From Candidatus Poribacteria bacterium (lineage in GTDB: Bacteria > Poribacteria > WGA-4E > PCPOR2b), in assembly GCA_022822005.1 (NCBI GenBank), contig JAJECO010000008.1, positions 1 through 64,000 of the forward strand: a stretch of DNA of 64,000 bases, in the 5' to 3' direction. Positions 1,515-19,612 of this stretch are shown here, piece after piece (the first letter of the stretch is position 1; every line of letters begins with the position of its first letter). The position numbers and the translations under genes are program-made. The notes under the pieces were generated by a model. The model did no database searches, was not told the origin of the DNA, and saw nothing but the letters and a program-made list of their open reading frames with translations.

Positions 1515-1685
1515 GCTAACCTGAGTTGCTAGTTGCTAAACCGGCTCGGCTTGGATAGGCATATCCAAGCTATCTTTGCGCGTGTGCAGTGGATTTGTCA
1601 ATCCACTGCGAGCAGTGAGAAACTCGATTTCGTTTTCATTCTTCCGTTTTGTGCCCTTTCACATCACTAGCAACTCGCGTTATGC
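1515..1685. repeat. MITE-like element, family R3, copy 1
   Basis: The ends are inverted: AACCTGAGTTGCTAG on the left and CTAGCAACTCGCGTTAT on the right. The interior (about 1541-1616) holds two perfect hairpins, GCTTGGATA/TATCCAAGC and GCAGTGGATT/AATCCACTGC. The right end touches the Shine-Dalgarno sequence of the next gene. A second complete copy lies at 22551-22727. Confidence 0.75.
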
Positions 1686-1698
1686 TAAGAGGACAAAA

Positions 1699-3198
1699 AT
1701 GGCACGACATCTATCACCCTTCCTGATACTCCTCTTGATACTCTCCCTATTATCGTCGGCGACCGCGCAAGAGTTCTCCGCGAGTGAGTGGAGAAGGTTG
1801 TCGGGCTATCCCAGCTACGTTTGGGACGTTGAATTTTCGCCACAAGGCACCTATTTCGCCTTAACCGTTGACGACAATACAACGGAACTTTACAACTGGG
1901 ATTGGCAGCGAATTTGGCGGCATCAAGGCCGTTATAGAGATGAGCACCACCACGCGGGTGCACTCGCCTTCTCCCCGGACGAGCAGTATCTTGCGATAGG
2001 GGCGCACGGCAAACGGAATGAGATTGCTATTCTGCGGCTTGCCGATTTACGCGTGATTCAGTACCTCAAGGGGCATTCGGATGTCGTTCGGAGTGTGAGC
2101 TTCAGCCCTGACGGGAGTTACCTCGCCAGCGGAAGTGAGGATAAGACGGTAAGAATTTGGCGGCATACCGGCAGTCAGTTTACCGCTCACCAAATCCTAC
2201 GCGGGCATTCAGACGTTGTATGGAGCGTCCATTTCGATCCGACAGGGGATTACCTCGCGAGTGGGAGCCGAGATCGCAGCATACGAATTTGGCGGCAGGC
2301 TAACCGTCGGTTGATTTTTCACCAAGCCCTGCACCTCCATACAGACTGTGTCAGGAGTGTACGCTTCAATCCGGACGGGAATACCCTCGCCGGCGGCAGT
2401 TGTGATGCAACGGTAAGCATCTGGCGGCATACCGGCGATCAGTTCATCCACCTCCAAACCCTGACAGGGCATACCGCGAATGTATGGGATGTGAATTTCA
2501 GTCCCGATGGAAGCTACCTTGCCAGCAGCGGTCGTGATATGACAATAAAGGTGTGGCGGTATAACGGCGGTCAATTTTCTCAGGCCCAAACCCTACGCCG
2601 GCATCAAAATGAAGTGAATAGCGTTAGTTTTAGTCCGGATGGGAGCTACTTCGCCAGTGGCAGTGCTGACAAAACCGTCAGGGTTTGGCGGGTGGAGCGT
2701 ATCGGTGACAAATCTCCTCCAGAACAACCGAGGCAGCCGGGTCTCACAAAGGCGCTTGATTTCGAGGTAAAGGCTTTCAACGGAGAGCTCCTGTCGCTGA
2801 AGAAGTATCGTGGGAAGGTGATTCTGCTCGATTTCTGGGCGACGTGGTGTGAGCCGTGTCTGGTTGAAATGCCGAATGTCAAGCGGATTTACAGAAAATA
2901 CAAAGACCAGAATTTCCAAATCATCGGGATCAGCTTGGACACGAATCGTTCAAGGCTGCGTTCTTACCTGCGGCGCGAACGTATACCATGGCCACAATTT
3001 TTTGATGGAGCCGGGTGGGATAACAGCGTTGCCCAGAAGTACGGGATTAATAGTATCCCGCAGACGTATCTCATTGATGGGAACGGTTTTATTCGTAAGG
3101 AGAATCTGCGTGGACGAGCCCTTGACGTCGCTGTTGGGGAGTTAGTTACAGAGAATAACCATCGAAAGAATTTTCGTAAAGTGCGTAGAAAGCGATAA
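1699..3198 (+). CDS. Secreted WD40 propeller - thioredoxin (TlpA/redoxin) fusion
   Basis: The chosen ATG has AGAGGA six bases upstream and opens a clear signal peptide (MARHLSPF...LLSSATAQ). An in-frame start 41 codons earlier would sit inside the R3 repeat and bury that signal. The mature protein has seven WD40-type motifs (the last five with FSPDG-like cores and VRIW-type ends), fitting one seven-bladed propeller. A redoxin domain of about 140 residues follows, with FWATWCEPC (cysteines 384 and 387) and the cis-proline stretch SIPQTYLID. The family role of such domains is disulfide exchange or reduction outside the cytoplasm. The propeller is presumably a partner-binding platform (inference). 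The C-terminus is basic. No operon partner: the next gene starts about 500 bases on. Confidence 0.9.
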   Translation: MARHLSPFLILLLILSLLSSATAQEFSASEWRRLSGYPSYVWDVEFSPQGTYFALTVDDNTTELYNWDWQRIWRHQGRYRDEHHHAGALAFSPDEQYLAIGAHGKRNEIAILRLADLRVIQYLKGHSDVVRSVSFSPDGSYLASGSEDKTVRIWRHTGSQFTAHQILRGHSDVVWSVHFDPTGDYLASGSRDRSIRIWRQANRRLIFHQALHLHTDCVRSVRFNPDGNTLAGGSCDATVSIWRHTGDQFIHLQTLTGHTANVWDVNFSPDGSYLASSGRDMTIKVWRYNGGQFSQAQTLRRHQNEVNSVSFSPDGSYFASGSADKTVRVWRVERIGDKSPPEQPRQPGLTKALDFEVKAFNGELLSLKKYRGKVILLDFWATWCEPCLVEMPNVKRIYRKYKDQNFQIIGISLDTNRSRLRSYLRRERIPWPQFFDGAGWDNSVAQKYGINSIPQTYLIDGNGFIRKENLRGRALDVAVGELVTENNHRKNFRKVRRKR

Positions 3199-3714
3199 AG
3201 CCCCTTGCTGGCAGCAGGAACATCTCCAGAGATTTGTCAAGGTCAAATTATAGTAGATTTTAGAATCGCTCATGTAAAGAATGAGTGCAACAGAAACCAA
3301 GGACGTTGTGGATCGGGCTTCCTAGCCCAACAGTAACCCGCTCATCGGGGCAAGGATGCCCCTCCCACAGACGGAATAGGATTCATAGTTTTTTGGTTTC
3401 TATATGGTGTTTTGTACTTTCTTTTGACATGAACCTTTAGAATTATTTAGACACTCCCCAATGCACAACCAACCCTAGTCACGATTTATCGGACCTCCTA
3501 AATCCCCCAACCCCCCTAGCCCCCCTTGTCAGGGGGGAAGATGAATTGGAACTTGTCAGAGGGAAACGATTGTCAGGGGGACTTGTGGACCCGCTGCGTA
3601 AGTCCTATGTTAATAACGTGATGCGTGAAAATCATTGGTTCATTCAGCCCCAGCGGGGCGATATGTGTATCCGAAGGGTGGAACGTAAGAAAAATGAATG
3701 AGGAGAATTGAGAG
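3199..3714. other. Intergenic region with repeat fragments
   Basis: No gene seen. It holds R1-type fragments (ATTATAGTAGATTTTAGAATC near 3247 and TTAGAATTATTTAGACACTC near 3437), a C-rich R2-like block ending TGCGTAAGTCC near 3604, and a REP-like palindrome (3645-3666). Several small hairpins are possible, but there is no T-tract terminator clearly tied to the upstream gene. Confidence 0.6.
3645..3666. repeat. REP-like palindrome AGCCCCAGCGGGGCGAYATGT
   Basis: GCCCC-AGC-GGGGC is a perfect stem followed by GATATGT. Copies in one or the other orientation occur at 29078-29100, 29131-29152, 45122-45142, 45175-45194, 61405-61427 and 63544-63566, all intergenic. Confidence 0.75.
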
Positions 3715-6700
3715 ATGAATGCAGAAACGCGGAATGTAAATGAATTGTTCAGTGGCACCAAAACATACAGAATCCGTCTGTATCAGCGCGATTACGTCTG
3801 GTCCATAAAAAATTGGGGGGAGCTCTGGGGGGATATTAAGAAACAGTGCGATCTAAGACTGAAAGCCGAAAGCAGTGCGAAACAACATTTTACTGGTAAT
3901 ATTATCATACAACCGGAGGGAGACAGCATAGAACTTCTCGACGGTCAGCAGCGTTTAATAACCTTTCAAATCATCCTCTGTGCAATACGGGATATCTGGA
4001 CGGTTTTCGACAATACAGATGCCGCTGAACGGGTTCATCGTTTGATAGTGAATGAAGGGTTCGATGAATCAGAGCCCATTAGACGATATAAACTGCTCCC
4101 ACGTGAGGGATCGGATCGGGAGACATTCTTCTCCATAGTGGAGCAAAACATGGTGATGAATGCGGTGGACGGATTCAGGAGATATGGTGAAGGCTGGCAT
4201 TTGAGAAGGAGGTACGGAGAAAATAGTGATGAGGGTGAGGAACATATTCTTCATATGACATATTGGTACTTCAGGTCCGTGGTTGCGAAGTATGTGGCTA
4301 CGAACTACGACAAACTCCATAACCTCTACCGCACTATCGTAGATGATTTTACAGTTGTTCAAATGGAGGTTGCCTCAAGTGATGAATGTGCACGGGTATT
4401 TGAGCTAATCCGTGGCGATAATACACTTAGTGCATTCGATCTTCTCAGGACCAACCTCTTTCTTAGAGCGGGAACTGGGAAGGTTAGGGATGAATTATAT
4501 CGCCCATACTGGCATCCTTTCTGGCGTCCTTTTGAAGAATATCAGTTTTTAAGATATCAGCTTTCGCAGAAAGATGAAGCAAACCTTTTCTTGGCGCATT
4601 TTCTCAAGGCGAAAGGGAAGATTGGGAATGCTGCTATTCTTGAGCCTACTCCCAGACGACTTGATAATAGGTTGTATGATGCCTATCAGACCTACCACGG
4701 GGAACTATCAGAAGAAATGAACCTTGATGAAAACGACCTTCAATTCGTCAAGCATGAATTTCAAGAATTGGGTAGGTATGTACAAGCTTATCAAGAAATA
4801 CATGATAGCGATTCAGAAATTGGAAGTCGACTCAAACTTTATGAGTATCAAAAGGTCTACTATGGGGGCGGACTTAGTGACTATGTTTCCTATCGTTTTA
4901 TAAGAGAACTAATACAATTTATATTGTACATAAAAAATGAGTTGGGCGTGTCAGATAGCCTACTGACCTCTGTTTTGGATTTTATGGAATCTCTTATAGT
5001 TCGGTTTGTAATATGTACTGGCGAAATAGTTGACAGCGTTGATGATTCTGAGCCCAAGGGTAAGGAGGAACGTCTTCTTATAGCAATATTTGGTCGTGAA
5101 GAGGGTGATTGTTCAATATTTACTCGCTTAGAGGACTGTTTATTGAGCAATGTCTTAGACATTGACACGAAGCGTAACAAGCTTAGCAGCTCTGGGGGGG
5201 TTGAAACACCGAGCGAGTTTAGGGAACTTAAAATTTTTCCTCTCGAAGTTGTTGATAAGGCTTTGCGTGACTACTGTCAAAATGACGTGCCTGATGCCGT
5301 GCGTGGAGAGGACACTGATTACGAGGCTCCCCGGTACGCATCGGGCAGGTGGGGTTCGCTCATTTGCTATATCCTGTATGGAATTGAACCGATGATTGCC
5401 AAAGAACAGGGGATCGCCAAAGCAGATTTTTCTAAAATGCTTGATCATATTGATCATAGCTACGGGGCACACGCGAAGCGGTTATTGGAGCATTATCCAC
5501 AAAATATAGGGAATCTGACGGTATGCTCCCGTTTGTGGGAGGTAAATGATGGGTGGGATGTGAAGGAAATTGTTGAGCGAGAAATAAAACTGATTGAATA
5601 TTTTAACAAAAGATGGCCCTCAGTAGAGGACTGTCTTGATACAATGATTCAATCCGCACAATGCGAACTTATCGGAACCGATGAAGGCATAAAAGAACTG
5701 TCACAAATCGTAGTCCACGATACCCACATTGAGGGGATTGATTGCAACGACAATCAGCAAGTCGTATTAGACAAGAACAGTATCTTTTTTACTTGTGCTG
5801 CAGCGGCGTGGTCTCGGTTGAAACCTTACATCCAAGAAGATGCAGAGTTGAAGGCCCGTGCCTTGGATCCAATTGAGTTGAATGACGAGATTCTCTATGA
5901 GAGAGTTGTGGCAATTACCTGCTCCGGTCATGTGCTGCGCGGGCAAGTGTGGGATTTTAATGAGGATGCAATCCGCATGAGGATCAACGGGCAAGATGTC
6001 ATCGTATTCAGGCGGGGGTTGTATGAAGTTGAAACGATGAAGCAGTTTGAAGTTCAAGTCAGCAATTTTGTCCAAGACCCACACAACGGGCAGTATGGCG
6101 TTCTTGAATTTAGTAGCAAACAATCGGAAGATGATGAACGATTAACAAAATTGTTTGGGGAGGAGTCAAAAAGGGTTCATGTGCATATATCTCAGGTTCC
6201 CAACAAAGATTTTCATTCACTGCAACCGGGTCAGAGGATAGCATTTAACATCGCTCAAACGGAGGAAGGGGTATACGCCCGTAATATAACCCTCAGAGGT
6301 GTTTTTTATGAAAGCCTTCAAGCAGAGGAACGTAATGTTATTAGTACCTACGAAGGCACAAGAGAACTGTCACAAATTGTAGTACACGACACCCACATTG
6401 AGGGAGTTGACCCCAACGACAACCGGAAGGTTGCACTAGACAAGAATGATATCCTTTTTGCCTGTTCAGCACAAGATTGGTCCATCTTGAAGCCCTACAT
6501 TCAGGAAGATGCAGCGGTGAAAGAACGGGCACTGAAGCCAATTCAGTCGCCTGCCGACAAACTTCAAGTCAAGGATTCGATTCTCAAATTCGACGTGACA
6601 GCAGTTACCCGGTCAGGGCACGTGCTTTGTGGATGGGTAGAGGACTTCGATGAAGATTTAATCAGTATGAGTATCAGTACGGCATGGACGGACATAAAGT

Positions 6701-7095
6701 CGGAAGATATAAATGTAATTGTATTCAAGCGGGGATTGTATGAAGTTGAAATGATGGAGCGGTTTAAAGTTCAAGTAAGAAATTTTTCCCAAGACCCACA
6801 GAACGAGCAGTATGGCGTTCTCGAATTTGGTGGAAGGCCAAACGATTGGGGCTCTAAACGCCAACACCTCACAGAATTATTCGGTGAAGGCCCAAAAAAG
6901 ATTGGTGTCCATATATCTCAGTGTCCCAACGTAGACTTTCGTTCGCTGCAACCGGTGCAAGAGATGGAATTTAACACCGCTCAAACGGAGGAAGGGCTAT
7001 ATGCCCGTAATATAACCCAAGTTGTTTCAGATACGCACACCCGCCGCCGTCCCCGCCGCCGTCCCCGGCGCGGCCGCCGCCGGAGAACCCGATGA
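3715..7095 (+). CDS. DUF262/DUF1524-like protein with duplicated Sm-like + cold-shock-like C-terminal modules
   Basis: The N-terminal part is a DUF262 (GmrS/ParB-like) domain, with YQRDYVW near residue 23 and the hallmark DGQQR at 76-80. Around 577-600 (DHIDH ... NIGNLTV) is a weak match to the DUF1524 HNH-type nuclease pattern that usually partners DUF262 in modification-dependent enzymes; the match is degenerate. The C-terminal half holds two copies of a segment of about 210 residues (roughly 658-865 and 880-1105), each starting ELSQIVVHDTHIEG. In each, a stretch resembling an Sm/Hfq fold (SGHVLxGxVxDFxED...VIVFxRGLYEV) is followed by a cold-shock-like stretch (YGVLEF...VHISQ...SLQPxQ...YARNIT). 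The last 20 residues are mostly Arg. The gene sits between a CRISPR array and cas genes, which suits a defence role acting on nucleic acid (inference). The start has GAGGAG/GAGAG upstream. The Sm and cold-shock assignments are by eye. Confidence 0.85.
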   Translation: MNAETRNVNELFSGTKTYRIRLYQRDYVWSIKNWGELWGDIKKQCDLRLKAESSAKQHFTGNIIIQPEGDSIELLDGQQRLITFQIILCAIRDIWTVFDNTDAAERVHRLIVNEGFDESEPIRRYKLLPREGSDRETFFSIVEQNMVMNAVDGFRRYGEGWHLRRRYGENSDEGEEHILHMTYWYFRSVVAKYVATNYDKLHNLYRTIVDDFTVVQMEVASSDECARVFELIRGDNTLSAFDLLRTNLFLRAGTGKVRDELYRPYWHPFWRPFEEYQFLRYQLSQKDEANLFLAHFLKAKGKIGNAAILEPTPRRLDNRLYDAYQTYHGELSEEMNLDENDLQFVKHEFQELGRYVQAYQEIHDSDSEIGSRLKLYEYQKVYYGGGLSDYVSYRFIRELIQFILYIKNELGVSDSLLTSVLDFMESLIVRFVICTGEIVDSVDDSEPKGKEERLLIAIFGREEGDCSIFTRLEDCLLSNVLDIDTKRNKLSSSGGVETPSEFRELKIFPLEVVDKALRDYCQNDVPDAVRGEDTDYEAPRYASGRWGSLICYILYGIEPMIAKEQGIAKADFSKMLDHIDHSYGAHAKRLLEHYPQNIGNLTVCSRLWEVNDGWDVKEIVEREIKLIEYFNKRWPSVEDCLDTMIQSAQCELIGTDEGIKELSQIVVHDTHIEGIDCNDNQQVVLDKNSIFFTCAAAAWSRLKPYIQEDAELKARALDPIELNDEILYERVVAITCSGHVLRGQVWDFNEDAIRMRINGQDVIVFRRGLYEVETMKQFEVQVSNFVQDPHNGQYGVLEFSSKQSEDDERLTKLFGEESKRVHVHISQVPNKDFHSLQPGQRIAFNIAQTEEGVYARNITLRGVFYESLQAEERNVISTYEGTRELSQIVVHDTHIEGVDPNDNRKVALDKNDILFACSAQDWSILKPYIQEDAAVKERALKPIQSPADKLQVKDSILKFDVTAVTRSGHVLCGWVEDFDEDLISMSISTAWTDIKSEDINVIVFKRGLYEVEMMERFKVQVRNFSQDPQNEQYGVLEFGGRPNDWGSKRQHLTELFGEGPKKIGVHISQCPNVDFRSLQPVQEMEFNTAQTEEGLYARNITQVVSDTHTRRRPRRRPRRGRRRRTR

Positions 7096-7189
7096 GTTAT
7101 ACGCTCGTAATATAATTCAAGTTGATGGGCGTGTTGATATTTTCATCGCGACCAGACAGGACGTGCACAGACGCCTAATTCTTCCGTAG

Positions 7190-7208
7190 GGGTTGGGGCG
7201 CCCAACCC
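7190..7208. terminator. Perfect 8-bp GC-rich hairpin downstream of the DUF262 gene
   Basis: GGGTTGGG, loop GCG, CCCAACCC, about 95 bases after the stop codon. There is no T-tract, so intrinsic termination is uncertain; it may only be a dispersed palindrome. Confidence 0.3.
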
Positions 7209-7432
7209 TGCCTGCTCTCGGACCAGGGGGACAGATGGAATGCGAGCACCTACAATTTTACTTAATATTTTCTAAAGTTTGGACAATTTTCCGTAGGTTG
7301 GGTTGAAGTGTATCGGGGCTAGGAAGCCCCTCCCACAAAGGGTAATGAATCTCGACCTGCAGGAGAGCTGCTCATATTGAAACGGGCAGGGGGGTGGCGT
7401 TAAGGATTTATAGGTCCTGTTAAAATTGGCTG

Positions 7433-8818
7433 CTAAGTCAGCGGGGACTCAGCGATAATTTCTAGCAACTTCCGCTTGCGGGCATGACGTTTTCGGAAGT
7501 CCGTCAGATAAGCAGCCCATTGATGCTCTCGGTCAAGGTGCCGATAGAGTTTCTTTAGCTGAGCCAGGTATCGTCGAACCTTCCGATAGTCCCTCTGCTG
7601 CCGGGAAAGGATGGTGTGATCAATAACCCGTTGATAGAACGTAAGGGCGGTCTCGGTTTGGTGAGAACTGAGAAGCGTGAGAAGTTTTTCGGTGAACTGC
7701 GACACACGCTGGCAGGTTGGATCCTGTAGGAGGTCCCAGTATTCGTCAACGGAGAGAGGGAATGTTTGAAGTGCCTCCCACGCTCTATCCTCCCGTTGGA
7801 GGGTAAAGAGGGTCTGTATCAACCGATATCCCTCGTCTTCGGACTGGGCAAGCCGAAGGTAATCTTCGCTCCGACCGGATGCAAGATATAACGCAAGCAG
7901 GAGCCGAACATGCGCCCGTCGGTCTGGGCTGTCATCAAGATGTTCTTCAATTTCCGCCTCTAACTCTGACGTATCTCTCTCCCCCAAACAGAGTTGTTCG
8001 AGGAAATCCGTCAGCAGCGGCGTGAAGACCCCTTCCGCATCAAAACTGAGCTCCAACAGCATTTGCCAGTGTGCAAAGAGTACAACCGGTGCCCGCGCGT
8101 GTGTGACGATTTCTATGAACGTTTTTGTGCATTTATTGACGAATCGGGGCAATTCGCTTTGCTGGAGTGTGTCAGGGTAGCGTATGATGGATTGATGTAT
8201 CAGCGCGTGTAGGATTGACAGGGCGCGTTCTATTTCGCCCGATTGTGCAAGAAATGACGCGTGTTGTCTCAAACCTTCAAGTTCGCTTAACAGATGATGG
8301 AGCTGGCCCTGTTCGAGAAAGCCGTCTCCAAAAAGGCGATCGATCTGTTCCCGGTAACCTGTGACGAGCGGCAGCGGTTCGGTGCACGCTGGGACGACGG
8401 GAACCTCTGAATATGCCTGAGCAATGGGAGCCAGTTCCGGTGCGCGTCTGAGTAGCTCTGAGATGACCTGTAACAGGTTTGACTTCGGTTTTTCGGCAAG
8501 GGCGGTGAGTACGGGTTCGAGGGAGAGGATCGCGTCCGGCTCGTGAACATAGGTCAACAGGAGTGCGACAATATGTTTACAATCCCCGCCCCAGTCGTAT
8601 AGGCACGAACAGTCGGCGTCGGCAATCCCTGTCGGGGTCAATTCGACGGTGACGCGATACGGTTCGATGTCCGTTCCCTCGCATGTCGCTGACAGGGTAT
8701 AGTCGTGGAGGGTCGGGTTGCCAATTGCCCCGTCATGAAAGTAGTCTAAGCCGCGCATGTAGCTTTGCTCGGTGCAGCGTTCTTGGATATGATACTGTGT
8801 GATTTCGGGAAGTTCCAT
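7433..8818 (-). CDS. SWIM zinc-finger protein
   Basis: The N-terminal 100 residues carry a SWIM finger: CSC near residue 70, then GGDCKHIVALLL, giving the CxCx(n)CxH zinc pattern. The remaining 360 residues are helical and rich in Leu, Glu and Arg, without a motif I recognise. SWIM proteins bind DNA or proteins and are often found beside SNF2 helicases, but none is near here. The gene is convergent with the DUF262 gene and lies next to the CRISPR genes, which may be coincidence. The start ATG follows the repeat-rich spacer. Confidence 0.8.
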   Translation of the reverse strand: MELPEITQYHIQERCTEQSYMRGLDYFHDGAIGNPTLHDYTLSATCEGTDIEPYRVTVELTPTGIADADCSCLYDWGGDCKHIVALLLTYVHEPDAILSLEPVLTALAEKPKSNLLQVISELLRRAPELAPIAQAYSEVPVVPACTEPLPLVTGYREQIDRLFGDGFLEQGQLHHLLSELEGLRQHASFLAQSGEIERALSILHALIHQSIIRYPDTLQQSELPRFVNKCTKTFIEIVTHARAPVVLFAHWQMLLELSFDAEGVFTPLLTDFLEQLCLGERDTSELEAEIEEHLDDSPDRRAHVRLLLALYLASGRSEDYLRLAQSEDEGYRLIQTLFTLQREDRAWEALQTFPLSVDEYWDLLQDPTCQRVSQFTEKLLTLLSSHQTETALTFYQRVIDHTILSRQQRDYRKVRRYLAQLKKLYRHLDREHQWAAYLTDFRKRHARKRKLLEIIAESPLT

Positions 8819-9338: not shown

Positions 9339-9614
9339 TCAAACAACAATTGTCTTGGGGTCCGGCGTTACGTCTCCGATAGCAGGCACTTCAATGCGAT
9401 TGGTGCAGGCACCGCAGAGCCTATAGTACCGAACCGAATCCTCAGATGGATCAATAACGCGATCAACGGCGCGCTTCAATTCGGCGTACTCCGCCCGGCT
9501 CAGGTGTGCTTCAAACACGCTGTACTGGACGCGGGTGCCGAATCCTTTGAGCGCCTTTGCCAGTTGATTGCGCCTGCGGTCGTCTGGAATATCGTAAGAG
9601 ATGACATAGAACAC
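9339..9614 (-). CDS. cas2: CRISPR adaptation protein Cas2
   Basis: Ninety-one residues, the normal size for Cas2. It opens with the beta-strand MFYVISYDIPDDRRR, carrying the conserved Asp of the ferredoxin-like fold. FGTRVQYSVFEAHLS and the late SVRYYRLC are typical of the family. Cas2 forms the scaffold dimer of the Cas1-Cas2 spacer integrase. The start is GTG, supported by AGGAGG eight bases upstream. It is separated from cas6 by a small membrane-protein ORF and repeats, so it is probably transcribed apart. No cas1 lies in the window. Confidence 0.95.
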   Translation of the reverse strand: MFYVISYDIPDDRRRNQLAKALKGFGTRVQYSVFEAHLSRAEYAELKRAVDRVIDPSEDSVRYYRLCGACTNRIEVPAIGDVTPDPKTIVV

Positions 9615-12916: not shown

Positions 12917-14242
12917 TTAGGCATAGACTAACGCAAATTGAACGTAACGAAATCTCGATCCGCCAGAGCTGCCCCCTAGATAAGCAGATGCAATTTCCCC
13001 GGCTGTAACGACAACTACTTTAGTGTCCCCATCACTTTCTTCCAATTGATTGGAAACCTTTATCAACTCCTCTTGTAAACCTACCAATTCGTCCGATGGT
13101 AGGTTTTTGAGGGTTTTGCGAAAAGTTGTACTGTAGGTAAGGCGTGGCAGTTCCAAAATCCTTGACGAAAGTAGACTTGCCTTAAAGTTATCCCAGATCC
13201 ATGTTCCAAAAGGTGATACCGTTGCATAACCGTCATCTGGTTCAATCAAGGTTGGATGTATTCCGTCTAATTGGTTGAGCTCAATGTAATCGCCTCGTGT
13301 TGCAACCTGAGCCAGTTGTACTGCACAATTTTTAACCGATGTTATGTCAATTAACTGTGGGTCGGGATTGGATGTGCTTGGGTTGGAAAACTGTTTGCCA
13401 GCTTCATCAAGACTAATTTGCTGCGGCTTTTCAGGACGTTTTCTAAGCGGGCTCTTAAAATTCGCATCAGGTCTGAGACTGCGTGGTATATCAGTGTGCC
13501 GCTTGCGGAAATATCCGTATCCGACAGCGGTCTTTGCTCCCAAACCCTTGTCTCCCAATGTTTTGTCAACCCAATCCGTGGCGGTGTTAATCAGAGCTTG
13601 TTCTTTCGCCAAAATCACAAATCGAAAAGACGTTTGCCCAACGGTCAAGAAATTGATTGGAATTGGATTCTGCGTATCAGTCGGCAGGTCTGTACCTGTG
13701 TAGTAATCAGAAAAATGTGGATTCATTATATCAAGTGAAAAGGTTACACTGTCTATCGGATAGGCAGGGAGAAATTGCACATTTCCGGAGGATTTTTGGC
13801 TACCAAAGACAGAGAGAAAATTTCTGTCTGCCAACGCCAAATTTTCGTCGTTACCGAAAACCTCCTGAATTACCCAACTCCGCACAACACCCTTAAAGGC
13901 ACTTCCAGGGATATAAGGAATACCGTAGACATGGTCAAGCGTCATATTAGTTTCCTGAACATGTTCGCCTCCAAGTCCGATAATCATCCGCCAATCTACT
14001 TCGTAGAACTCACAGAAATGGCGATAACTTTTTATCAAATAATCGAGTTGGTTTGTTTGACGGGCTATGAGAGGGGCAATCGCCCCCTGTGAGTCGCCAA
14101 GGACCGTTGAGTCAATTGAAAATTTAACTTTTCCGCCGCTGTCTGGTTCATTTTCCAAGAAATACTGGTAACGCAAGGCAAAGTTTGAGATCTTATTTCG
14201 ATTAACGAGCTGTTGCGTGTCATCTGGGCAATAAATCGGCAT
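12917..14242 (-). CDS. cmr6: Type III-B RAMP protein Cmr6
   Basis: 441 residues. The first 260 are a classical Cmr6: GIPYIPGSAFKGVVRSW near residue 110 and the Gly-rich loop LGDKGLGAKTAVGYGYF near 235-250. Cmr6 caps the crRNA 3' side of the Cmr backbone and contacts Cmr1. It has an additional C-terminal extension of roughly 170 residues not usual for the family, without a motif I recognise. Its ATG overlaps the cmr5 stop codon (TGATG), showing translational coupling. Confidence 0.93.
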   Translation of the reverse strand: MPIYCPDDTQQLVNRNKISNFALRYQYFLENEPDSGGKVKFSIDSTVLGDSQGAIAPLIARQTNQLDYLIKSYRHFCEFYEVDWRMIIGLGGEHVQETNMTLDHVYGIPYIPGSAFKGVVRSWVIQEVFGNDENLALADRNFLSVFGSQKSSGNVQFLPAYPIDSVTFSLDIMNPHFSDYYTGTDLPTDTQNPIPINFLTVGQTSFRFVILAKEQALINTATDWVDKTLGDKGLGAKTAVGYGYFRKRHTDIPRSLRPDANFKSPLRKRPEKPQQISLDEAGKQFSNPSTSNPDPQLIDITSVKNCAVQLAQVATRGDYIELNQLDGIHPTLIEPDDGYATVSPFGTWIWDNFKASLLSSRILELPRLTYSTTFRKTLKNLPSDELVGLQEELIKVSNQLEESDGDTKVVVVTAGEIASAYLGGSSGGSRFRYVQFALVYA

Positions 14243-14640
14243 CAGTTATCGTCCTCCACGTCTTTCATCAATCCATCAACGAAACGCCGGACCCAATTTA
14301 ACAAAGCGAGTGTCTCGGTCGTAATTCGACGATATTCGTTAGACGGTTTATTAATGATAATATCAACAAGGTCAACATTTTCCCCCAATTCAACCAACTG
14401 TTTATCATCTAGCCATTTGCCAATCAGATCATACAGTTTTATGTTTCCGTTATCTCGCTTGTTGATGAATGCCAACGCCTGCCCAAGCCCATTGGTTTTG
14501 ATTAGTACTGGCAGTTTTTTCGCACCGGATTTGTACTTTTTCTTGAGATCCTCATCAGTATTTTGAGCAATTTCTTTAACGCAATCATAAGCGAAGGCCG
14601 CACGTCCTTGCTCAATACCTCGAATGCTGTTTTCGTTCAT
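14242..14640 (-). CDS. cmr5: Type III-B small subunit Cmr5
   Basis: 132 residues from an ATG preceded by AAGGAGG at ideal spacing. A longer frame exists upstream but overlaps cmr4. Helical, beginning MNENSIRGIEQGRAAFAYDC, with the family-typical KKLPVLIKTNGLGQALAFI and the late ETLALLNWVRRFVDGLM. Cmr5 forms the minor filament that stabilises target RNA along the Cmr4 backbone. It is tightly packed between cmr4 (10 bases) and cmr6 (overlapping). Confidence 0.95.
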   Translation of the reverse strand: MNENSIRGIEQGRAAFAYDCVKEIAQNTDEDLKKKYKSGAKKLPVLIKTNGLGQALAFINKRDNGNIKLYDLIGKWLDDKQLVELGENVDLVDIIINKPSNEYRRITTETLALLNWVRRFVDGLMKDVEDDN

Positions 14641-14650
14641 TGCTGCCTCC

Positions 14651-15643
14651 TTAACCTCCGTAGATTTTTGTCCGAACAATCCCTTTACCGATTGTTGCAT
14701 TCCCACCTAGTTGAATTACAGTAGGAAGTCCATCTTCAAAAAATTCCATCACCTTTTCCGACTCATCGCGCCCCTCCTTCTTGTCTTGGGCGTTTAACTG
14801 GAAGATGCCTTTATTAGCATTGTTCTCTTGAAAGATGGGCGAGGTCAAGGCAAGTGAGTAAAGAATCGAATCAGAGGGGAGGTATTCTTCGTACCACAAA
14901 GCTCCCTTTTGTACAATTCCCGTATCTTGGTTAATCTTGATTCGTGCGATGACCTCCGTTGAGAGCGTTACAAAGTCACGAAAATCATCATCGCTCAGTA
15001 CAACAAGGCTTTTTTTAATTTTTTCACTCCAATAATTGTAAACCTGGTCCGATGGCAAAACGTTTTCCGCAATCCAATTAGCTAGTTTCTTACAATCTTT
15101 GGTACTATTTACCTTGAAAGTGTACTCTTCCAGAACAATCTTGCTGTCGCTGATAATGAGATCACAGTTAGGCGGCACCTGATTCTCCCCCGGAAGCGAT
15201 CCATTAAACTCGATATCATCCGGTTGGCAAATAGAGAGATCGTGTTTGAAACGTTCAAGCACTGCTGGACAGGTGATCCAGCCGAAAACCCCTGAAACCG
15301 ACTTGACTGGAAAAAGCAGGAGACGTGCATCGGTAAATCCCAAGGCCCCTGCATGCAGGTTATTTTGATCCGCACTATCAGGACCAAACGCCAAGTTAAT
15401 AGCTTTTTTGTAGTTTTCATCGTCAACAGAAGTGATCTCCCAACCAAGTTCAAGCCCTTTCAAATTGGGTTGGGTGCTAAAAACTTCCCGAATCCCGCCC
15501 TTAATGCCTGACGCTTCGATCTTGGGATAGTCCGTATGCTTTTCGCGTTGGATCGGCAAATCAACAATGCCGAGATCACTGCCACTTCCAGCGTGCAATG
15601 ATGTTTCAACGATTAAGAACAGAGGTTTTGCAGATTTAAACAT
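14651..15643 (-). CDS. cmr4: Type III-B backbone RAMP ribonuclease Cmr4
   Basis: 330 residues. The N-terminal LHAGSGSDLGIVDLPIQRE followed by ASGIKGGIRE is the Cmr4 signature; an Asp in this loop supplies the target-RNA cleavage in characterised Cmr4. The C-terminal LGGNATIGKGIVR is the Gly-rich RAMP loop. The ATG chosen has AAGGA eight bases upstream. A GTG six codons earlier overlaps the cmr3 stop and is the alternative. Several copies form the helical backbone and cut the bound target RNA every six bases. Confidence 0.95.
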   Translation of the reverse strand: MFKSAKPLFLIVETSLHAGSGSDLGIVDLPIQREKHTDYPKIEASGIKGGIREVFSTQPNLKGLELGWEITSVDDENYKKAINLAFGPDSADQNNLHAGALGFTDARLLLFPVKSVSGVFGWITCPAVLERFKHDLSICQPDDIEFNGSLPGENQVPPNCDLIISDSKIVLEEYTFKVNSTKDCKKLANWIAENVLPSDQVYNYWSEKIKKSLVVLSDDDFRDFVTLSTEVIARIKINQDTGIVQKGALWYEEYLPSDSILYSLALTSPIFQENNANKGIFQLNAQDKKEGRDESEKVMEFFEDGLPTVIQLGGNATIGKGIVRTKIYGG

Positions 15644-15660
15644 AATGGTTTCCTTCGTCA

Positions 15661-16758
15661 CTATTTTGGCACTGCGCCAACATACGCAAGACCAAACCCC
15701 TCTTGTGTGCGTTGGTCGCCAATGTTTTTATAATGCAAACAGTCTAAAACTGTTTCGGCTTTTGTACGATTAATTAATCGAAAATAGTAAACACTCCCAG
15801 CAGGAACTGCACGATACGCCTTTTTGGGGTTTCCGTTTGCAACATCCCATCCCCCAATAGTCACGTAATTCCCTACCGCGGCAGTAATTAGCTCAATATC
15901 TCCGTGGAGGCACTTAGGTAACCAGCCATCATCAAAAATGGCGTGTGTTCCTAAATAGAGTTTGAATTTCTTGGATTCATCTATTACATCGCGAATTTTG
16001 GCGCGATCACTAGCCAAAAGCAGATCTGGTTGCTGGATAGTTTCATTGTAGGTAAAACCTTTTCCTTCCCCGCCTAGTTTTATTAACGCGCTTTTGGGAA
16101 GCGGATCTATTCCATTGACATCAACCACAAATCCCAACTCTGAATCACTGAAGCGCTTCATGTTAATCCGATAAAGCATACCCTCGTCAACTGTCAATGT
16201 CTTGTGGCTTCGGGTAATACCCACCTTCGGTTCATCTATGATAAAGCCTGAATTTTCTGACGTTAGTCCCGAGGTTTTGCCAAGCAGATATTTCCGCAAG
16301 TTATCGCACGAGATATAGCCGCCTGCATGTTCAACCTGCATCGTAGGATCATTCCATGTTAGGAGATTGGACAATTCCGAATTGGATCTTGAGGAAGAGG
16401 TGCCACTTTGCGATTCAATTGATAGTGGATACAGTGTCGCGCTTTCTGATTTCTTTTCGGACACCAAATCGCGCGGAGTTAGATAGTAGAGCGAACCGCC
16501 GTTACGTCCTAAGAACACCCCCTTGACCTGGATTGATGCACCTAAGAGCGACTGTTTTGTGCCGATAACCGATTCCATCTGGTCACTGGCAAACTGTGCC
16601 ATATCACCGCAGAACGCAATATAAGCAGTCCGCAACGCTCCCATCACGGTTGAAGGAAACGGCGTTTCGATTGAATAGCCTTCCGATTGCTCGCCCCGTG
16701 TGAAGGGACGACCATCGCGAAAGAAAAAAGTGTCATTCGGTTTCAGAAACAGTCTCAT
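15661..16758 (-). CDS. cmr3: Type III-B RAMP protein Cmr3
   Basis: 365 residues, usual length. MRLFLKPNDTFFFRDGRPF followed by PFPSTVMGALRTA is the Cmr3 signature. The C-terminal VPAGSVYYFRL and EGFGLAYVG are the conserved closing elements. Cmr3 with Cmr2 binds the crRNA 5' tag at the foot of the complex. Its start overlaps the end of cas10/cmr2 by 26 bases. Confidence 0.95.
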   Translation of the reverse strand: MRLFLKPNDTFFFRDGRPFTRGEQSEGYSIETPFPSTVMGALRTAYIAFCGDMAQFASDQMESVIGTKQSLLGASIQVKGVFLGRNGGSLYYLTPRDLVSEKKSESATLYPLSIESQSGTSSSRSNSELSNLLTWNDPTMQVEHAGGYISCDNLRKYLLGKTSGLTSENSGFIIDEPKVGITRSHKTLTVDEGMLYRINMKRFSDSELGFVVDVNGIDPLPKSALIKLGGEGKGFTYNETIQQPDLLLASDRAKIRDVIDESKKFKLYLGTHAIFDDGWLPKCLHGDIELITAAVGNYVTIGGWDVANGNPKKAYRAVPAGSVYYFRLINRTKAETVLDCLHYKNIGDQRTQEGFGLAYVGAVPK

Positions 16759-18655
16759 CCCTTTTTCCTCCCCGCGCGATAAAGTTAATAATTTCTAAAA
16801 AACAGATAAAGTCGTCAAATTTTATCAACCTATTAGCCAGCATCAAAGTTAAATCTTGAACATTTTTGTCAATTCTCTGTTGAATTTCCGCATCTGAACG
16901 AACCTTTTCGCTCGTTGCACGTCGGATTAGACGTTCAAGTTCGGATTCAACAACGCCGGGCAATTCAAGTAGGCCATCACGGTCAGTAAGGCGTGTAAAG
17001 ACATCGCGGAAGGTATATATGAATTTCTTGGAAACCTCCCCTGTCTTAATAAGTTCAATAAGGTTTCGGCTTACTTTAATCATATCAATGTCTTCACCGC
17101 TTTCAACCTTGTACTTCCATTTAAAGACCGTCTGTGAGATGTTACCAGAGTGCTTCAGCAGGGCGATACCGAGGGCGTTTTTCCCGTCAACAGATTTTGC
17201 CTCCCGCTCCATGGCACGGGCTCGATTCAGCACATCGCCCAGCGGCACTTTACAGTGGGCGATACAAACACCGGCGGATGCTGTTGATGCGGGGTTTTCA
17301 CCACTGTTTAGGTTTGGAAAATTACAATGGAGCTTACAAAGGATCTCTAGTAAATCTTCAAGGTTTGCCAAGGCGAGCACATCGTCGCCACCAGCATAGA
17401 TGAGTTTCCCAAGGTAATCTTCATCCACGATTTGTCGAACTGTTGTCGTATACGCATTCAATTTACTGCTGATCTTTGTATGCGCTTTCCAATTCTCGGC
17501 TCGTGAGATGGTCTTTCCCATCCCGTCCCCGTCTAGGACAATCACTGCAAAGTATCGACTCGGATCGAAGCCAATATGATTGTTGATAAGCTCCCGGCGC
17601 AGCTTGTTGCATTGGCTGATTGTCTCTTTCTGCTCTATCTGAGCTTTTTTGCTGATGCCGTAGTAACGTTCAAGATTGTGTTCCGAGAACGACTCTTCAA
17701 AGAGCCAGTCACCATCAATATTCCAGCTCTTTTGAATTCTTTTAATTTTACGGACAGGGTCCACAGTTACTTCGATCCGATTGCCGTTAGCGTTTTTAAG
17801 TCTGTTAACTGATTCAACAAACTCCTTGTACTTTTCCGTTGCTTCTTTGTCGTTTGCAATCCAAAGTTTGACATCAGCGGTGGATACCTCCGAGGTCGAT
17901 TGAAAAGAGAGTTTTTCGATCTCTGAATGTTTCTCGCCAAAATACTCCCCGGCGAGACGCTTGGTAAGACAAACCGTGCAAAGTGCCTCACCCTGCCGAC
18001 AATATTTTGCCCGACGCTGTGCAAACCGATCCCACCATTCCATTGGATTGTCGTTACCGTTATGAAATATTTCTCGTTCGCCACAGAGCGAGCATTTACG
18101 TCCACTTTCTTTGACTTGTTCAAACGCCCGGCAGTTTTTGGCAGAGGCAAGCCGAGTTCCGGTTTGAGCATACCAATCCTTATACTCCTCACTGTTTCCG
18201 CTTGAGACAACCCAATAGAGCTCAAAGAAATTCTGAACCTGTTTTTTAAAGAGCTGATCCGCGTAAGTGCTATCCCATGTTCCTTTATCAACTGTCTTAA
18301 CGAAGATTTCAACCGCGTGTCTTGCCATCTTCTCAAATTCACATTGGACAACCGCTTCAACATATCGCATTGTTTGGGCTAATTCGCAAATTGAGAAATT
18401 TTCGCTCCTAGCAAGAAAGAGATTCGGAAATGAGGGAAGCGTAATATCTGCTTTCTTCCAAGAATCAAATGGCGAATCCTCTCCAATTGACGGATAGATA
18501 ATGTTGACCCCCTCTTTTGCGTAAAGCTGATGGATTGCGGTTGCGTTGAGGTGTGATAGAATATAACTACCGAGCCACAAATCTTCTGTTTTCCGCGCAG
18601 TTGTGATGAATTTTTGTACGGGCGTAATCGTGAATAAGATGAGATTTTCAGTCAT
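16733..18655 (-). CDS. cmr2: Cas10/Cmr2, cyclic-oligoadenylate synthase subunit without HD domain
   Basis: 640 residues. It starts directly with the Cmr2 segment ITPVQKFITTARKTEDLW, so the N-terminal HD nuclease of many Cas10 proteins is absent. A zinc-finger insertion has C188-x-x-C191 and C226-x-x-C229. The palm domain carries VIVLDGDGMGK (D375, D377) and the active site YAGGDD (GGDD at 422-425), expected to make cyclic oligoadenylate when target RNA is bound. A second palm-like region with ASAGVCIAH follows. The protein is thus predicted to signal but not to cut DNA. It overlaps cmr3 and starts ten bases after cmr1. Confidence 0.96.
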   Translation of the reverse strand: MTENLILFTITPVQKFITTARKTEDLWLGSYILSHLNATAIHQLYAKEGVNIIYPSIGEDSPFDSWKKADITLPSFPNLFLARSENFSICELAQTMRYVEAVVQCEFEKMARHAVEIFVKTVDKGTWDSTYADQLFKKQVQNFFELYWVVSSGNSEEYKDWYAQTGTRLASAKNCRAFEQVKESGRKCSLCGEREIFHNGNDNPMEWWDRFAQRRAKYCRQGEALCTVCLTKRLAGEYFGEKHSEIEKLSFQSTSEVSTADVKLWIANDKEATEKYKEFVESVNRLKNANGNRIEVTVDPVRKIKRIQKSWNIDGDWLFEESFSEHNLERYYGISKKAQIEQKETISQCNKLRRELINNHIGFDPSRYFAVIVLDGDGMGKTISRAENWKAHTKISSKLNAYTTTVRQIVDEDYLGKLIYAGGDDVLALANLEDLLEILCKLHCNFPNLNSGENPASTASAGVCIAHCKVPLGDVLNRARAMEREAKSVDGKNALGIALLKHSGNISQTVFKWKYKVESGEDIDMIKVSRNLIELIKTGEVSKKFIYTFRDVFTRLTDRDGLLELPGVVESELERLIRRATSEKVRSDAEIQQRIDKNVQDLTLMLANRLIKFDDFICFLEIINFIARGGKRDETVSETE

Positions 18656-18664
18656 AGTACATTC

Positions 18665-19501
18665 CTATGTGATAACTGCGTTGATGAAATCCCTCTGTCT
18701 CAGCTTGTAATCGTGAGGGGGTGCACTTGGAAAAATAGAGTTAAGTTGTGTGACAACCGGGACAAAGTTATTACCGACTTTCTGAATACGAACGTGAATC
18801 GGTGAAGCCATCCGTGGATCGTGATCGCCCAAAGCCTTATGGTTGTGATTGTGTGTTTCCTGTCCGATCCTGTGGAGTAGGGCATCAACATTAGGCCATA
18901 GTGTATTACCGAAATGGACTACTTTAATCACCGGGTAATCTGGAAAGGGCGGAATTGTGGAGGCAACCTGAATCTCGTTAGTCCCTTGATTGAATCTCCC
19001 CGGTGAAATCCCATTAAGGGTTTGAAACACCTGGTTTTGGAGCTGCGTAACGTTACCAAAGCTCCAGGACTGATAACGAATTGAACCAAATCCACGTCGT
19101 GAGCGATTGCCAACACCGCCAAGTAGGAAGCCAATCTCAGCAATTTTTTTATATTCGCTAAGTATTGGAGCTACAAGCGTGAGGTTAAAGTTGTTGTTAG
19201 GCAGATTAGGCAGATAAGCTAGCATCTTAAAGTGAGGATTATGTGGAAGCGGAGGATAGGCACCAGATGGCAATGACGCTTGACCGGAAATACGAACCGA
19301 TAAAGGCGATCTCTTTTTGGTATTACCAAATAGGTCTCTTTCCTTGTCGCGTAAATTATTTTCATCTTCTCCCACCACTGCCCGCCACCAATAACGAAAT
19401 AGAGCTTTAAACGGCGGTGGTCGAAGTTCAGGTGTTTGGTTGTCTGCCCCACGAAGAAACATCGGTGTCACGGTTTCAAGTTCCAATATAGTTTTATTCA
19501 T
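18665..19501 (-). CDS. cmr1: Type III-B RAMP protein Cmr1
   Basis: 278 residues. The N-terminal ETVTPMFLRGADNQTPELRP followed by FKALFRYWWRA is the Cmr1 signature. The Gly-rich RAMP loop GFLLGGVGNRSRRGFGSIR lies near the middle. It sits at the head of the Cmr complex near the crRNA 3' end. The protein is at the short end for Cmr1; the C-terminal RAMP domain looks reduced. AAGGA precedes the ATG, and a good promoter lies about 110 bases upstream. Confidence 0.93.
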   Translation of the reverse strand: MNKTILELETVTPMFLRGADNQTPELRPPPFKALFRYWWRAVVGEDENNLRDKERDLFGNTKKRSPLSVRISGQASLPSGAYPPLPHNPHFKMLAYLPNLPNNNFNLTLVAPILSEYKKIAEIGFLLGGVGNRSRRGFGSIRYQSWSFGNVTQLQNQVFQTLNGISPGRFNQGTNEIQVASTIPPFPDYPVIKVVHFGNTLWPNVDALLHRIGQETHNHNHKALGDHDPRMASPIHVRIQKVGNNFVPVVTQLNSIFPSAPPHDYKLRQRDFINAVIT

Positions 19502-19612
19502 TGTGCTTTTCCTTGAACAGAGCTCTGGTTCTCCAAAGCAATAAATTGATATGAAATCATTTTAATACAGGCAACATTTTTTATCAAAAAAATTGCGATT
19601 GTCCATACATAC

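Follow-up and report, generated by a model that had tools for sequence, protein, structure and literature searches.

A DUF262-type protein of Poribacteria with a degenerate nuclease domain and a duplicated Hfq-like and cold-shock module

DUF262 proteins are sensors that fire a DUF1524 nuclease, which raises the question of what such a sensor could do when its nuclease motif is degenerate and a long extension follows it. Here, we consider this question for a gene found in a 64,000-nucleotide stretch of DNA (the window) from a member of Candidatus Poribacteria, which are sponge-symbiont bacteria. The gene lies between CRISPR repeats (approximately positions 1–1320) and a region that begins at 9339 and encodes Cas2, Cas6 and Cmr proteins, as had been noted in a sequence-only reading of the window, and this location suggested a link to CRISPR immunity. 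The features discussed below are listed in Table 1.

Table 1. Features of the window gene and its surroundings
Feature	Position	Strand	Remarks
4254-bp segment absent from contig C45 of genome G008 (L114)	3207–7460		17 bp in its place
Dispersed repeat, left copy	3344–3374		Direct partner at 7312–7342 (87%)
DUF262-Hfq-Hfq-CSD (x2) protein, 1126 aa, domains as predicted	3715–7095	+	Intact frame, ATG start, GAGGAG upstream
DUF262/GmrSD_N NTPase-type domain and helical linker, residues 1–435	3715–5019	+	Pfam, alignment, model and Foldseek
Degenerate DUF1524/GmrD remnant, residues 540–640	5332–5634	+	Alignment; model confidence low here
Unit U1, residues 651–862: predicted Sm-like barrel 651–721, Hfq-type barrel 722–784, CSD 785–861	5665–6300	+	Pfam, blastp, alignments
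Unit U2, residues 873–1102: predicted Sm-like barrel 873–945, Hfq-type barrel 946–1020, CSD 1021–1102	6331–7020	+	AlphaFold2, Foldseek
Arg-rich C-terminal tail SDTHTRRRPRRRPRRGRRRRTR, residues 1105–1126	7027–7092	+	13 K/R in 22; not conserved
Out-of-frame 79% copy, 34 bp, of the coding end 6991–7024 (LYARNITQV)	7091–7124	+	Repeat family D10
Dispersed repeat, right copy	7312–7342		Flanks the window gene with the left copy

The DUF262 core and the nuclease remnant

The Pfam profile GmrSD_N matched residues 8–249 of the window protein (E 6.5e-21), in agreement with the DUF262-type assignment of the sequence-only reading. Matches to PADLOC models comprised Orf5, HEC-06, SspE and mREase_IV. The QR (24–25) and DGQQR (76–80, bases 3940–3954) motifs, which are invariant in the alignment, are retained, and the Asn of the FxxxN motif, kept in most relatives, is replaced (FELIR, 229–233). 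The full-length model (pLDDT 62) is poor except for the DUF262 core and the first barrels, and in Foldseek searches the core best matched DndI (1.2e-8) and SspE (PDB 9JFL, 7DRR and 6JIV).

Ordinary paralogues from the same order have a DUF1524 part that reads LEH[IV]MP ... IGNLTLV..LN. In register with the first of these motifs, the window protein reads LDHIDH (DHI at 577–579); NIGNLTV (IGNLTV) is kept, and the approximately 40 aa with LNxxL...LN that should follow it are gone. The protein therefore departs from the His-Me finger of active GmrSD (EHxxP ... GN ... N), with DHIDH standing for EHxMP, and Pfam GmrSD_C found no match in it. A maximum-likelihood tree of 67 DUF262 proteins grouped the window protein with 15 others (support 94/83, and 98/91 for those 15 without it), a placement that is less sure because its row forms a long branch. 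EHxxP is present in none of the 16 clade members, so that the degenerate motif pointed out from the window sequence is a feature of the whole clade, and it is present in 12 of the 13 members of the sister clade, the exception (L011) being a short ORF of 492 aa. Ten of the 16 carry a tail (Hfq-CSD, CSD, three S1 or seven S1 domains) and the other six are partners that lack one; all the clade relatives listed, tailed proteins and partners alike, retain QR and DGQQR (L031 of the motif listing is the gene labelled L002 in the tree). The DUF1524 nuclease of the window protein is thus most probably dead, and the possibility of an active type IV restriction enzyme was rejected given the loss of the nuclease motif.

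The early-branching proteins of L009 (CSD tail) and L035 (Hfq tail) retain the nuclease as well as the tail. Gain of a tail may have preceded nuclease loss, or there may have been more than one gain. A distinct DUF262 group was also seen in L126–L134, with proteins of approximately 750–890 aa that lack EHxxP and whose C-terminal parts have no assigned domain.

The duplicated C-terminal units

The two C-terminal units, of approximately 220 aa, share 58% identity over 221 columns (blastp E 7e-86) and are sisters in the module tree (100/97), from which the duplication most likely took place within the window gene's own lineage. Since then, the units have been under purifying selection, strongest on the first barrel (dN/dS of 0.34 overall and 0.19 in this barrel, Sm1, at a dS of approximately 0.79).

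The AlphaFold2 model of U2 (16 sequences; pLDDT 91.8, pTM 0.87) comprises a five-strand barrel (strands at 6–50), a helical link, another five-strand barrel (92 to approximately 145) and an OB-type cold-shock domain (CSD). In Foldseek, the end part matched CspA, CspB, CspE and Lin28 with probability 1.00, and the two barrels taken jointly gave weak tandem Tudor/KOW-type matches alone; Pfam recognised the CSD in two stretches of the protein (E 2.7e-12). A profile of the second barrel, built from 22 sequences with the window units as rows 1 and 2, found 37 Hfq or Hfq-like PDB chains ahead of anything else (best E 9.2e-9, 3ahu). The Pfam Hfq profile, which gave no match in the window protein itself, matched the relatives of L035 (7.8e-10), L045 (1.5e-9) and L033 (1.8e-6). 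By these profiles, the second barrel is an Hfq-type Sm domain. The first barrel had no match among PDB sequences, so that its description as Sm-like rests on the model. The two copies of an Sm-like and cold-shock module proposed in the sequence-only reading were therefore recovered by family profile, Pfam and U2 model, with the correction that each copy has one barrel more than had been counted.

Several residues typical of RNA contacts have changed. The RNP1 and RNP2 motifs of the window CSD read QYGVLEF and VHVHI, compared with GFGFI and VFVHI, with most RNP aromatics apparently lost, and they are intact in the CSDs of the relatives in L031 and L033. In the Hfq YKH motif, the position of His57 is occupied by Arg in both window units (FRRG and FKRG), relatives in L033 and L035 having YRHG/YKHG, and a basic residue at the K56 position is kept. 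Given the eroded RNP motifs, the Arg at His57 and the acidic net charge of the units (-14 and -13), their affinity for RNA may be weak. The window units are putative binders of RNA or single-stranded DNA (ssDNA), and nucleic-acid sensing is a plausible predicted function of the protein.

The Arg-rich tail that had also been noted is real, though missing from all relatives seen (L031–L033, L003 and L049). Its location between a 34-bp sequence and the 79% copy of this sequence makes it look like a recent local rearrangement.

Relatives and genomic context

The CRISPR neighbourhood is incidental to the window gene. In G008, the closest genome with this locus, the genes encoding the WD40-thioredoxin and SWIM proteins that flank the window gene are side by side and 92.6% identical to their window counterparts, the intervening segment being missing. 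No cas genes were recognised beside the relatives examined, which adjoin type ISP restriction-modification genes, a ThsB-type TIR gene or apparent housekeeping genes. The link to CRISPR suggested by the position of the gene thus did not hold, and a role in CRISPR-Cas was rejected given the empty site in G008 and the positions of the relatives.

Single-unit DUF262-Hfq-Hfq-CSD proteins recur in Poribacteria (L003, L031, L032, L033 and L124), and related DUF262 proteins have S1 or CSD tails in place of the Hfq-CSD tail. Within the same clade, the proteins encoded at L034:7700-11338 and L036:7590-10277 have seven and three S1 domains, respectively. In all seven assessable cases, from six loci, the tailed gene lies downstream of a tail-less DUF262 gene in the same orientation, with a gap of 44–223 bp (L032, L033, L034, L036 twice, L037 and L038); L003, L031 and L124 were left out of this count, as the sequence ends too close to the gene. 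The window copy has no partner DUF262 gene and is flanked instead by the WD40-thioredoxin and SWIM genes.

Type ISP/Eco57I-type methylase genes adjoin the pairs of L032 and L034, and the ThsB-type TIR gene adjoins that of L033, while L036, L038 and L031 adjoin apparent housekeeping genes, pheST and trpA among them (named from sequence alone). The expectation that the architecture would recur beside defence genes was therefore borne out at several Poribacteria loci and not at others, and the defence context of the relatives appears to be partial rather than uniform.

The 17 loci taken from the genome collection all belong to Poribacteria, and the named records are all Candidatus Poribacteria. 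A plasmid tblastn search with the tail, a scan of genome contigs with the full protein and pattern scans of viral contigs returned no match. A wide spread outside Poribacteria was dropped as an explanation in view of the empty plasmid and viral-contig searches and the 17 loci; the scan patterns reach close relatives only, so absence outside this phylum is not proven.

The module itself is more widely distributed. Its profile matched 81 of the 85 genomes of the phylum, many matches corresponding to a conserved protein of approximately 270–330 aa in which a CSD at the N terminus precedes two Hfq-like barrels (for example, L081:4455-5447, L083:3100-4080, L084, L085 and L087), together with ordinary CSDs. 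Pfam Hfq matches in the phylum fall nearly all in ORFs of at least 130 aa, not in a short Hfq of classical type, the exceptions having 96 and 84 aa. In the double-barrel tree, modules on non-housekeeping proteins form one separate group (100/100). Their carriers are DUF262 proteins, TmtA-like sacsin-type ATPases (L040, which adjoins a DrmD-like helicase, and L041), UvrD/GajB-like helicases and an RNase H-like protein (L044), and short ORFs with the module lie near type ISP or DrmD/TmtA-like genes (L045, L046 and L047). In L042 and L123, and similarly in L122, the module is found on a UvrD/GajB-like helicase downstream of a tail-less UvrD paralogue.

These tandem UvrD/GajB-like genes (L042:4178-10076, L122:4009-11386 and L123:4729-10196) have the tail-less gene first and the tailed gene second, the same order as in the DUF262 pairs. 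In L042, a GIY-YIG match lies inside both genes, weak in the downstream one, and the downstream copy has GrpE-, Hfq- and S1-type tails. DrmD-like helicases and TmtA-like ATPases or type ISP genes with fused or nearby Hfq-type modules were seen at L040:7077-13818, L046:235-10504 and L045:8829-12985.

Possible roles of the protein and its module

Among known systems, TgvAB of Vibrio cholerae VPI-2 requires both of its DUF262 proteins and both DGQQR motifs (PMC11411939). The Poribacteria relatives resemble this defence-type system in their two neighbouring DUF262 genes with QR and DGQQR in both, and the AlphaFold models of TgvAB are nearest to SspE and BrxU, that of the window core being nearest to DndI and SspE. 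However, TgvB has a live DUF1524 nuclease whose His and Asn are needed (PMC11411939), whereas neither gene of the Poribacteria pairs, whose downstream member bears an Hfq-CSD, CSD or S1 tail, has kept the nuclease, and the window copy is solo. The type IV enzymes GmrSD and BrxU have Pfam GmrSD_N and a GmrSD_C remnant in common with the window protein, which lacks the EHxxP catalytic motif, and the extra domains reported on the GmrSD family in a phylogenomic study are DUF4268, DUF4357 and DNA_binding_1, not Hfq, S1 or CSD (PMC4619093, PMC8565348). DndI and SspE, the phosphorothioate-sensing nickases that best match the core in structure and share DGQQR, possess an active HNH domain and are associated with a phosphorothioation operon; this motif is missing from the window protein, and no operon of this kind was seen adjacent to its gene. 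The second barrel resembles the RNA chaperone Hfq in its family profile and in the basic residue at the K56 position, but it is one of two barrels fused on a large protein, with His57 lost, rather than a stand-alone protein of 70–110 aa.

Tails of the Hfq, S1 or CSD type are absent from the searched passages of a review on DUF262 defence proteins. The literature searched, mostly papers available without subscription, contained neither this architecture among GmrSD proteins, as the sequence-only reading had supposed, nor anything relevant on the Hfq of Poribacteria or on fusions between Hfq and defence proteins. This suggests a variant of the DUF262/GmrSD kind with a tail not found in the literature searched.

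We tentatively favour, at slightly less than even confidence, a DUF262 NTPase switch with a dead nuclease, in which a module of RNA/ssDNA-binding or assembly (ring-forming) type has taken the place of the effector. The window protein would belong to a GmrSD/TgvAB/SspE-type DUF262 branch so far found in Poribacteria only. Its DUF262 part, with the nucleotide-pocket signature, would most likely still be an NTP-driven switch answering DNA or a partner, as inferred from the family, and the output would be delivered or gated by the C-terminal Hfq-Hfq-CSD module, here duplicated, which may bind RNA or ssDNA and/or assemble Sm-type rings. The state of the NTPase would depend on whether the tail has bound a transcript or ssDNA, or the reverse, making the protein a regulatory or sensing subunit, not a cutter. 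In relatives, by analogy, the tailed protein probably acts with the upstream tail-less DUF262 protein, as TgvA does with TgvB. The domain architecture, its recurrence, the motif loss, the purifying selection acting on the units and the tandem pairs of the relatives are observed; NTPase activity, binding of nucleic acids and a part in defence belong to the interpretation. A branch without nuclease but with RNA-chaperone-type tails suggests that a different output or input is available to DUF262 NTPase switches.

Hfq functions in ring form, and it is conceivable, though unlikely, that the tandem Sm barrels are protein–protein modules with little sequence-specific RNA binding, building mixed rings that would link DUF262 subunits with one another, with other Hfq-tailed proteins or with the CSD-Hfq-Hfq protein. 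Such an adaptor would agree with the general ring-forming nature of Hfq, with the acidic units and their eroded RNA-contact residues, with the strongest purifying selection acting on the first barrel and with the presence of one module on DUF262, TmtA-like, UvrD-like and RNase H-like proteins and short ORFs. Yet CSDs with intact RNP motifs stand beside the module in L031 and L033, and in sister proteins its place is taken by S1 tails, suggesting that what they have in common is the binding of nucleic acids. Domains of the Hfq, CSD and S1 types generally target mRNA, and the tail might instead bind its own mRNA and limit a toxic or costly NTPase, defence being exerted by DUF262 alone or with its partner. 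The interchangeable tails (Hfq-CSD, CSD, three or seven S1) on a constant DUF262 core and the coexistence of nuclease and tail in L009 and L035 are compatible with such autoregulation, but it leaves the duplication and retention of the tail unexplained, and we regard it as quite improbable.

The window copy may also be drifting, considering its lost FxxxN Asn, its long branch and the absence of a partner gene. Taken further, the protein would be a decaying or non-defence one, derived from a GmrSD enzyme that has degenerated and is carried on a mobile segment, with a tail that has little function in this genome. The solo copy, the segment absent in G008, the dispersed repeats around the gene, the eroded RNP and His motifs, the low-complexity Arg tail and the broken 3' repeat all fit this scenario; an intact frame of 1126 codons, the kept DGQQR and the dN/dS of the units over a dS of approximately 0.8 since duplication speak against it and make it improbable.

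Beyond the nuclease-dead switch that we favour for the window protein, there is a broader and rather unlikely scenario, in which a dedicated Hfq-derived double-barrel adaptor that evolved in Poribacteria, distinct from the near-universal CSD-Hfq-Hfq protein, would be plugged into a number of defence families unrelated to each other (DUF262 pairs, TmtA/DrmD-like modules, UvrD/GajB-like helicase pairs and short genes beside type ISP systems), with immunity being RNA-gated or based on a shared Sm-ring platform. If true, it would amount to a hub of bacterial defence built on an RNA chaperone. Since one Hfq-type module is found on several defence-type proteins within a single phylum, the idea of an immunity platform that is linked to RNA or based on rings can be tested directly.

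Some further observations concern the neighbouring genes. At the start of the CRISPR array (1–150), two successive repeat-spacer units of 75 bases are identical, including the spacer. The gene at 1576–3198, which adjoins the CRISPR array, encodes the WD40 propeller fused to a thioredoxin/AhpC-TSA-like domain. The SWIM zinc-finger protein, encoded at 7433–8818 between the DUF262 gene and cas2, matched PADLOC PDC-S62 (7e-12) and is present in three of 13 near genomes, its own genome included. The Cmr region (13004–19601) has 80% DNA identity to G010, while the genes flanking it match G008 at approximately 90%, yet Cmr3 of G008 is merely 46% identical; the type III effector cassette therefore seems to have been exchanged.
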